Below are positions 1-35,583 of a stretch of 38,430 nt of DNA, in pieces. This stretch comes from Negativicutes bacterium (GTDB lineage Bacteria > Bacillota > Negativicutes > JAGOZY01), in the NCBI GenBank assembly GCA_017995975.1, contig JAGOHU010000003.1:1-38430 (forward strand), in the 5' to 3' direction. The notes under the pieces are model-generated. The model saw only the letters and a list, made by a program, of their open reading frames with translations. It ran no database searches and was not told where the DNA came from. Position numbers and translations under genes: made by a program. Each line of letters starts with the position of its first letter. Position 1 is the first letter of the stretch.

Positions 1-371
1 AACCATTGGAGGGTATCAATCATTAATCGATGCCAAAAGTCTGCTAAAAAAATTCATCTCAAAAAAATAGAATCGATCTGACCCTTTACAACTCAAAAAA
101 ACCAAAAGAGCCAGGCTATTACTTGTACTTCTGCACTTCACAAGACTTTTTACTATTCTCAAAACTGACTCGATCTCTCCTGCAATACCAGAGATTTTTG
201 TGAATACACACATGATAAATAAATGGATTCAATTAGACTCAGAGAATTCAACGCCAAAGGGAGTAAACACCACTCACAATCAGAATTGTAACCACTTAGC
301 TGAAACAGTAGCGTCAGAATTTTAATCGATAGTGCCAGTTTGCGAGCCCAGACCCTACATGCTAGAAAATT
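1..371. other. Intergenic or gene-end region, no recognised gene
   Basis: No gene can be supported here. A + strand frame entering from the left edge runs to a TAG at about 68-70 and could be the last 22 codons of a gene outside the window (tail reads IGGYQSLIDAKSLLKKFISKK-like), but it is too short to identify. The remaining AT-rich sequence contains open frames on both strands without a convincing ribosome binding site or recognisable protein. No transposon end or RNA gene was recognised. Confidence 0.3.
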
Positions 372-1109
372 TTATTTTACATAAGGAAATGATTCCAAGT
401 CCTTAATCACCTGTCCAATAATCTCCGAGCCAGTACCGTCGCCCCAACCGAGAATTTTTCCGGTTTCGTTCAACCGTTTTAACGAACAAATCGCTTGTTC
501 TTTTAAAGAAGAGTCGATAAATCCAGTGATTTTAATTTGCCCTAGAGCGACTCCATAAATCACCAAATCAGTTTGATGAATATTCATTTCCTCTTTCTCT
601 AGTTCTTCTTTCAGGTTAGTCAATTCTTTATCAACCACAGGAAGGTAGCTCAGTCCCCAGTCATTCTCAATAATTTGTTTAGGAATATCAGGAAAGAAAA
701 GCTCCTTTTTCACACTCCGAATAAACTCTTGTAAAAAACCTAAGGTGTCGCTTCCTTCATCGCTGCCAAAAGGAGCTTCTTCGTCACCGCAATCATAGTA
801 AAATTCTTCTCTAAAATGCGAAACAAAGTGGGGGTGAGTTGTTTTCGGATGGAGTCCGATTTCTTCATCATCAAAGTAATAGCGATCAATAAAATCAAAA
901 TCCTTTTGTTCAATGTACCCTTTTTTGATTTTCTCAGTAATTACTTTTTCCGCATTGATCCTGCACTCCTCTTCTGAATCCCATTCTTTCATTTGGAACT
1001 TACCGATTGTACCATACTTACCATAGTTCACCATGAAGTCGAAACCAGAATAATCAACCCACCAAAATTTGTCGCTTTTTTCATCTTGGTAGCGAAAAGC
1101 TCTCTTCAT
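372..1109 (-). CDS. WGR-domain protein
   Basis: A 245-residue soluble protein. Residues about 10-65 match the WGR fold, a small nucleic-acid-associated domain named after a Trp-Gly-Arg motif and known from PARPs and bacterial regulators; the core here is the variant NYGKYGTIG, preceded by a WWVDYSG strand. The remaining 180 residues are charged and unrecognised, with no PARP catalytic domain or helicase. Stand-alone WGR proteins occur in low-GC Gram-positives with unknown function. The start ATG follows a good AGGAGG-like site (GGAGGAAAAAATA before ATG). It lies downstream of the aminotransferase gene on the same strand, separated by a hairpin, so it may form its own unit or be reached by read-through. 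The domain call is fairly sure; the role is unknown. Confidence 0.7.
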   Translation of the reverse strand: MKRAFRYQDEKSDKFWWVDYSGFDFMVNYGKYGTIGKFQMKEWDSEEECRINAEKVITEKIKKGYIEQKDFDFIDRYYFDDEEIGLHPKTTHPHFVSHFREEFYYDCGDEEAPFGSDEGSDTLGFLQEFIRSVKKELFFPDIPKQIIENDWGLSYLPVVDKELTNLKEELEKEEMNIHQTDLVIYGVALGQIKITGFIDSSLKEQAICSLKRLNETGKILGWGDGTGSEIIGQVIKDLESFPYVK

Positions 1110-34150: not shown

Positions 34151-34309
34151 ATGCCCCATGTAGAAAAAATGATTAGGCTTGACTACAATCTTTCAAAAAG
34201 AAAGATTTGTAAGAAACCCATCTTTGCCTTAATGAGATGGAAAATAATGACATCGAATTTAGTCAAAAAAATGCAAGCTGAAGTGGAGAGAGAAATGAGC
34301 GAAAGTTAA
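34151..34309 (+). CDS. Possible 52-residue basic peptide
   Basis: An ATG frame of 53 codons with many lysines and arginines (LDYNLSKRKICKKP near the middle, acidic end EVEREMSES). There is no good ribosome binding site, and a 8-bp hairpin (AATCTTTC/GAAAGATT, 34187-34207) lies inside it. It resembles nothing I know. It may be a degraded gene in the repeat-rich gap 34063-34811. Confidence 0.2.
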   Translation: MPHVEKMIRLDYNLSKRKICKKPIFALMRWKIMTSNLVKKMQAEVEREMSES

Positions 34310-34368: not shown

Positions 34369-34546
34369 TGTAGGGGATGGCGCCCTCGACATCCCACCTA
34401 TGATACTCTTCATTTATAGTTGAATGATTGATGCCAAACTCAAGATAACTCCTAAAACTTCTCTATCAATAAATAGCTGATCATGCCCAACATATACAGC
34501 CAGTTCAAATCCAGAAAACCGGATGTCGAGGGCGCCATCCCCTACA
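34369..34546. repeat. 178-bp element bounded by perfect 26-bp inverted repeats
   Basis: The left arm 34369-34394 starts TGTAGGGGATGG and the right arm 34521-34546 ends CCATCCCCTACA; the two are exact reverse complements over 26 bases. Each arm can also fold by itself (GGGATG with CATCCC). The 126 bases between are AT-rich and carry no gene. It looks like a non-autonomous palindromic repeat (MITE or REP-like). The arms are far more GC-rich than the surroundings. Target duplications were not evident. Confidence 0.7.
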
Positions 34547-34712: not shown

Positions 34713-34811
34713 CGAATAAAAGTAAGTACCGATATGCAGGCATTAGAACCAGATAAAAATTTTAATTCTCTCCTAATCGCAAAATCTACATAAACGAGGA
34801 GGATTTCTTAA

Positions 34812-35583
34812 ATGTTAAAGATTGGTATTCCTATTTTCAAGGACGTAGAGTTGCTCCTACACTCAATCCGCTAAAGCGGGAGAGTAGTATGGAGCACTAC
34901 CGTAGTCTTAATGAATTCAAGAAAAACGATGAATGAATTTAGACCCAACGGTGAGAACTCGACTTCATCGGTCCTTTTGAGTTATTCCTACATTCGATCC
35001 ACTAAAGTGGGAGAATAGTATGGAACACTACCGTAGCCTTGGTGATTGAGGAGGCAAAGCCGAACTCAGAGCCTAGTCTCAACGGTGAGTGTTAAACTCA
35101 GTCAACAAAATCAAACCAGACAGCCTCCAAACCATCCTCATCGCCGAAACCCTCGATCCCGTCACCTGTTACAACGGCCTCAAAGTCATCCCCGACACCA
35201 CCCTCAGCGACTGCCCACCTCTAGACATTCTCCTCATCCCGGGCGGACAAGGTCGAAAAATCTATGCTAAAAAAGATAATTTCAAAGAATTTATCCACAG
35301 CCAAGCCAGAAATACTCAGCTCCTCACCTCAGTCTGCACCGGAGCCTTCTTCCTCGCCGAAGCAGGCTACCTGAAAGGCAAAAAAGCCACCACCTACCAC
35401 ACCGCCTTAGAAGAACTAGCCACCTTTGACGTCCAAGTCCTACAACAAAAATACGTCCACGATGGCAACATCATCACCGCCGCCGGAGTCAGCTCCGGTA
35501 TAAGCATGGCTTTTTATCTGGTCGAACACCTCTTTGGTAAAGAAATCGAACAGCAATGTAGAGAATGGATAGAATTTGATTAG
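34812..35583 (+). CDS. DJ-1/PfpI-family gene interrupted by two structured inserts
   Basis: Three in-order coding pieces make one DJ-1/PfpI protein: 34812-34850 (MLKIGIPIFKDVE), 34955-34981 (ELDFIGPFE) and 35089-35583 (VLNSVNKIKPDSLQT onward to TAA). Joined, they give 186 residues with the family order DFIGPFE (conserved Glu), ILLIPGGQG, the nucleophile Cys in SVCTGAFFLAEAG and TYHTALEEL. Such proteins are glyoxalases, proteases, deglycases or amidases. AGGAGG lies nine bases before the ATG. As written, translation from that ATG stops after 20 codons at a TAA inside insert 1 (34872-34874). The third piece also has a GTG start at 35089 but would lack the first strand and the conserved Glu. The exons show no decay, so either the inserts are recent or they are removed or bypassed. 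Confidence 0.8.
34851..34954 (+). mobile_element. Structured insert 1 (104 nt) in the DJ-1 gene
   Basis: Starts TTGCTCCTAC after a GAG codon and ends CAACGGTGA before GAACTC. Predicted helices: CTCC (34854-34857) with GGAG (34891-34894), ACTC (34861-34864) with GAGT (34882-34885), CCGC (34868-34871) with GCGG (34876-34879, loop TAAA), then conserved CACTACCGTAG and TCTT/AAGA (34906-34922). The in-frame stop TAA lies in the TAAA loop. Removing it joins the reading frame exactly. No protein is encoded in it. Confidence 0.7.
34982..35088 (+). mobile_element. Structured insert 2 (107 nt) in the DJ-1 gene
   Basis: Related to insert 1. Starts TTATTCCTAC after a GAG codon and ends CAACGGTGA before GTGTTA. 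Equivalent helices carry paired changes: TTCC/GGAA for CTCC/GGAG, ATTC/GAAT for ACTC/GAGT, CCAC/GTGG for CCGC/GCGG, CCTT/GAGG for TCTT/AAGA. The TAAA loop, the GA and AGTAT joints and CACTACCGTAG are unchanged, and the frame again meets TAA in the loop. The middle part is GC-richer (GGCAAAGCC, CTCAGAGCC) and the 3' part has seven extra bases. Confidence 0.7.

Follow-up and report, generated by a model that had tools for sequence, protein, structure and literature searches.

In the window, that is, the whole 38,430-nucleotide stretch of DNA that was analysed, positions 34812-35583 carry a gene of the DJ-1/PfpI family that is split into three coding pieces by two structured inserts. The features of this locus and of the region just upstream are the following.

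34214..34274, plus strand: degenerate third copy of the 3' hairpin of the inserts, belonging to a related subfamily and lying between genes on the upstream side of DJ-1 (match to covariance model R1 at 26.8 bits, window E 0.0003)
34796..34803, plus strand: Shine-Dalgarno-like GAGGAGGA, 8 nt upstream of the start codon (sequence)
34812-35583, plus strand: DJ-1/PfpI gene, three pieces and two inserts (direct sequence reading)
34812..34850, plus strand: first piece (MLKIGIPIFKDVE), with the ATG at 34812 (translation; alignment with 14 relatives)
34851..34954, plus strand: insert 1, structured repeat, 104 nt (fold z-scores; match to model R1, 72.7 bits)
34955..34981, plus strand: middle piece, nine codons (ELDFIGPFE) including the conserved glutamate (joining; alignment with relatives)
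34982..35088, plus strand: insert 2, structured repeat, 107 nt (fold z-score; match to model R1, 80.7 bits)
35089..35583, plus strand: third piece, 164 intact codons and the stop (sequence; PF01965 match)

The unspliced reading frame meets a stop after 20 codons. Translated together, the three pieces yield a protein of 186 amino acids, MLKIGIPIFKDVE-ELDFIGPFE-VLNSVNK..., from 186 codons with no stops or frameshifts, with the catalytic residues retained and the ribosome binding site intact. This joined protein matches PF01965 with 106.2 bits over profile positions 2-164 of 165, compared to 90.6 bits over positions 26-164 for the downstream ORF by itself, and contains the full domain with the conserved Glu and the nucleophilic Cys; its nearest solved structures are those of isonitrile hydratase InhA. 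A search for uninterrupted homologues, proposed in the sequence-only reading of this DNA, identified 14 relatives of full length, encoded by other genomes within the class, which show 51-60% identity to the joined protein and cross both junctions without gaps (e.g. VEELDFVGPFEVL); the insertions are inferred from these relatives, none of which is an uninterrupted strain of the same species. The three-piece split is confirmed as real and well beyond chance. All the particulars that had been claimed for it stand, namely the lengths of the two inserts, the restoration of the frame upon their removal, the intact ribosome binding site, start and downstream frame, and the presence in the middle piece of the glutamate, which is kept in the alignment with the relatives.

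The sole lesion of the gene besides the inserts is a C-terminus that, in the alignment, falls at least 6 residues short of those of the relatives. Relaxed selection was considered and not adopted: among otherwise invariant positions, 11 of 58 sites are changed in the DJ-1 gene and 5 of 60 in rsmG of the same lineage, the control, and this excess is not significant (Fisher p 0.11). The earliest start for the third piece by itself is GTG 35089, which is directly preceded by a stop codon and, as judged by inspection of the sequence, has no Shine-Dalgarno-like sequence upstream.

Both inserts are bounded alike (GAG^TT...CAACGGTGA^G, the 3' end being GGTGA with the cut before G), and no bases are gained or lost when they are removed. 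Across the first 67 nt they are 84% identical to each other, and the compensatory changes between the two are located in stems. Each is predicted to form two adjacent hairpins, at about 34852-34896 and 34898-34953 in insert 1 and at about 34985-35025 and 35029-35087 in insert 2, a fold that would place the insert ends close together. The RNA fold z-scores are -6.8 for insert 1 and -4.2 for insert 2, and insert 1 folded as single-stranded DNA has a z-score of -5.1. Target duplication is absent at both DJ-1 junctions, and so are terminal inverted repeats, the ends TT...GGTGA not being inverted repeats of each other. Every readable left flank in the subfamily of the DJ-1 inserts ends with AG, and wherever the left end of a type-1 copy is readable, it shows (G)AG-TT followed by the hairpin. 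Rfam scans of the window region and of 12 other loci assigned the element to no family; for intron families, no match came up with cut-offs of E 5 over 2 kb of the window region and of E 1 at the 12 loci.

The inserts are not unique to the DJ-1 gene but are copies of a dispersed repeat. Searches with BLAST and with R1, a covariance model built on the repeat's 3' hairpin, detected about 30 copies of this hairpin (31 at E<0.02) spread over many contigs of the host's 1.72-Mb draft genome, which is about 78% complete and in which the copies were located by search only; the degenerate copy at 34214-34274 resembles those of loci L110 and L111. It had been proposed to look for such inserts in relatives as well, and the hairpin is indeed found in 9 of the 381 genomes of the class, host included (8 of the 380 others), comprising the only other genome of the host's family that was searched and seven further genomes. 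Among these, G200, G296 and G301 hold 12-13 or more copies each, and the hairpin is also present in G090; outside the class, there are two weak matches in the same phylum. Mobile repeats typically show a distribution of this sort, patchy and with high copy numbers. The copies also cluster across the host genome, where 10 pairs of neighbours lie no more than 500 bp apart and 0.3 would be expected, so that two inserts in one gene are in keeping with the family. BLAST of the inserts against phages and against plasmids yielded nothing, and neither did BLAST of the peptide encoded by the element on contig C88 (see below) against phages. Two pattern searches were discarded: a 15-base pattern occurs in 69 stretches of genome contigs spanning unrelated phyla, a number not above what a word of this length would give by chance, and the 8 stretches detected in viral contigs were judged to be chance matches, with flanks that lack the 3' arm of the hairpin.

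Covariation was assessed on 48 distinct sequences from several families. In this alignment, which was fitted to the model and therefore favours the structure, 88.5% of the cells are paired, a share that shuffling lowers to 67% and sliding of the partners to 37% or less; double-change cells number 169 against 52 in shuffles, and 16 of the 17 pairs show change on both sides. Because the effect is large and recurs in several families, the conserved fold of the hairpin is secure despite the fitted alignment.

Nearly all other copies in the host are intergenic, and in other genomes 28 of 31 copies lie outside any frame of at least 130 codons. An interrupted gene would also score as intergenic in this test, and hence the sequences on either side of each host copy were joined at many alternative cut points. 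No convincing second sense-interrupted gene emerged among them, the long spanning frames being located at gene ends or antisense. Of the copies in the subfamily of the DJ-1 inserts, about 5 of 6 fall in coding sequence, a bias that counts against the explanation by mobile repeats given below. On contig C88, the element or a related one lies antisense near the start of three paralogous signal-peptide proteins encoded in a tandem array (locus L011, 107-3697, where several paralogues carry the repeat near the start). Two of these three are traceable, and both are open in frame through the element; the third leaves the contig edge. The first paralogue reads MKSLVRLV-[SPLGLGSEFGFASSITKATVVLRTTLLLCKLRVGAT]-MVGVLL..., the second has a different version of the element, and neighbouring paralogues lack it. 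In the paralogue at 107..604 of this array, the likely ATG start is apparently out of frame, next to a run of seven T. For a related subfamily, comparison of L099 with L102 provides two near-exact pairs of empty and filled sites without target duplication, with about one base of ambiguity. Elsewhere, a repeat is nested in the hairpin of another (L092 on contig C212, minus strand; compare L099), and just downstream of it lies another insertion, which belongs to a related subfamily; a full copy lies within a larger palindrome between apparent phage scaffold and capsid genes (L012 on contig C22, 3836-3941).

The probable explanation of these observations is that the inserts are small (about 105 nt) structured repeats, probably mobile and non-autonomous, that hit the DJ-1 gene twice. 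The fold of the repeat, its short target ending with AG and the absence of target duplication are observed, and two separate insertions at the start of the gene would have broken the reading frame. Because target bases are neither duplicated nor lost, the gene is recovered exactly once the two units are deleted. The repeat might be moved as folded single-stranded DNA or RNA by an enzyme provided from another source, which presumably recognizes the fold of the element. For duplication-free insertion, a Y1 transposase is the enzyme that first comes to mind; PF01797, the respective family, is present in G200 and G296 but absent from the host draft, with its completeness of about 78%, and from G090, which is 99% complete, and this absence counts against the explanation. 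The DJ-1 gene would then be a probably recent disruption, possibly reversible through precise excision. A further point against this explanation is that the gene has no clear lesion apart from the inserts, and a long-dead gene would show decay; this condition fits a recent insertion but also continued use.

The repeat family is apparently undescribed and belongs to a known general kind; its double insertion at DJ-1 is unusual. Rickettsia palindromic elements (RPE) are palindromes of about 100-150 bp inserted in frame in protein genes (PMC10969869). The repeat resembles them in being similar in size, structured, dispersed and located within protein genes (PMC10969869), and the two antisense copies on C88 are read through in frame as RPE are. 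However, the DJ-1 copies are out of frame (104 and 107 nt) and contain stops, the wider family is mostly intergenic, and the host is unrelated, the likeness to RPE being one of size, structure and placement. Insertion of IS200/IS605 elements causes no target duplication, a property shared by the repeat. Like REP sequences and BIMEs, it consists of high-copy, imperfect palindromes that are mostly intergenic. The features of REP sequences include a GTAG tag by the palindrome (PMC8266576). By contrast, the repeat has no GTAG or guide tetranucleotide 5' of the palindrome, its left end being (G)AG-TT, and is much longer, at 105 nt with two hairpins; the lack of a Y1 (HUH) transposase in the host draft and in G090 also sets it apart from REP and IS200/IS605. 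It differs from classical MITEs in that there are no terminal inverted repeats and no target site duplication at DJ-1 or at L099/L102.

The sequence-only reading had offered three possibilities, very small introns, bypass elements or structured mobile repeats, and the last of these is favoured by the roughly 30 mostly intergenic copies, the antisense copies and the nesting without duplication. It is unlikely that the inserts are instead removed from RNA, as a very small self-spliced or enzyme-spliced intron, such that full-length DJ-1 protein is made. The identical boundaries of both inserts, the exact restoration of the protein, the predicted two-hairpin fold that draws the insert ends near each other, and a gene free of other decay, in which the excess of changes at conserved sites over rsmG is not significant, all speak for such removal, and an element situated within a gene whose frame is restored by exact removal is reminiscent of IStrons and group I introns. 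However, no Rfam intron family matches the inserts in either of the above searches, no ribozyme core is recognizable, including one of group II type by the Rfam covariance models, and the repeat has no associated ORF. Group I ribozymes span 200-500 bp (PMC4227781), so that the inserts are about half the minimum length (PMC4227781). The position of the other copies, mostly between genes, speaks against a dedicated intron, joining of flanks gave no convincing second sense-interrupted gene, and the C88 copies are antisense to their gene, where they are kept as coding sequence and where splicing as the same RNA strand is impossible. The exact restoration had been considered hard to explain by chance, but insertion without target duplication already accounts for it and requires no removal from RNA. 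A spliced micro-intron at DJ-1 is therefore an unlikely reading of the sequence. Its broader form, in which the repeat would be a mobile RNA element, about half as long as the smallest group I introns, that is removed from sense transcripts, making its insertions harmless, and thus a new bacterial micro-intron, appears slightly less probable still; if sense copies were removed from RNA in this manner, no smaller intron-like element would be known from bacteria.

Translational bypass of the inserts, as in phage T4 gene 60, has very little probability. The inserts are structured, both flanking frames are intact, and the first gap contains an in-frame TAA seven codons past the take-off site; as in gene 60 and the Magnusiomyces byp elements, a non-coding gap lies in an otherwise intact frame. 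Bypass by re-pairing involves matching take-off and landing codons (GGA/GGA in T4), a match that is not perfect in yeast mitochondria (PMC5009743). In the DJ-1 gene, take-off would occur at GAG, whereas both sites have TGA as the triplet preceding the resume codon, a mismatch that contradicts matched-codon bypass; furthermore, the gaps are twice as long as that of gene 60, two bypass events would be needed in succession, and the repeat also occurs in intergenic and antisense locations. About as doubtful as splicing is the use of DJ-1 in a shortened form of 164 residues, restarted at GTG 35089, or a regulatory role of the inserts. The downstream frame is open for 164 codons and still matches PF01965 at the score given above, but the short form would lack the first strand and the conserved glutamate, and the context of GTG 35089, with the preceding stop codon and no Shine-Dalgarno-like sequence, is unfavourable.

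This family adds a structured repeat with strong covariation and no Rfam entry, probably mobile, that spreads in some bacteria of the class. Within genes it is found in two arrangements: on one strand it is read in frame, and on the other it splits a gene exactly. Duplication-free insertion makes reversible gene splitting possible.

Several observations concern palindromes around the repeats. Near-identical cores lie within long outer stems at L183, L186 and L189 in G301 and at L118, L122, L127 and L132 in G200; the sequence of these stems varies by copy, with complementarity kept, a pattern that suggests insertion into existing palindromes or homogenized cores. Clearly palindromic flanks are confined to one other family (G200, G296, most G301 copies, G272 and G305) and the C22 copy. 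The flanks of the DJ-1 copies are not palindromic, and hence insertion into pre-existing palindromes was not adopted for them. On contig C75, a T-box leader was identified above the Rfam gathering score (L013, 10778-10969). Finally, just upstream of the DJ-1 gene, there is a perfect 26-nt inverted repeat (34369-34394 and 34521-34546, with 126 nt between the arms); near copies of its arm recur on contigs C135 (three, with 108 nt spacing) and C33 (two), which by sequence makes it a separate palindromic repeat family.
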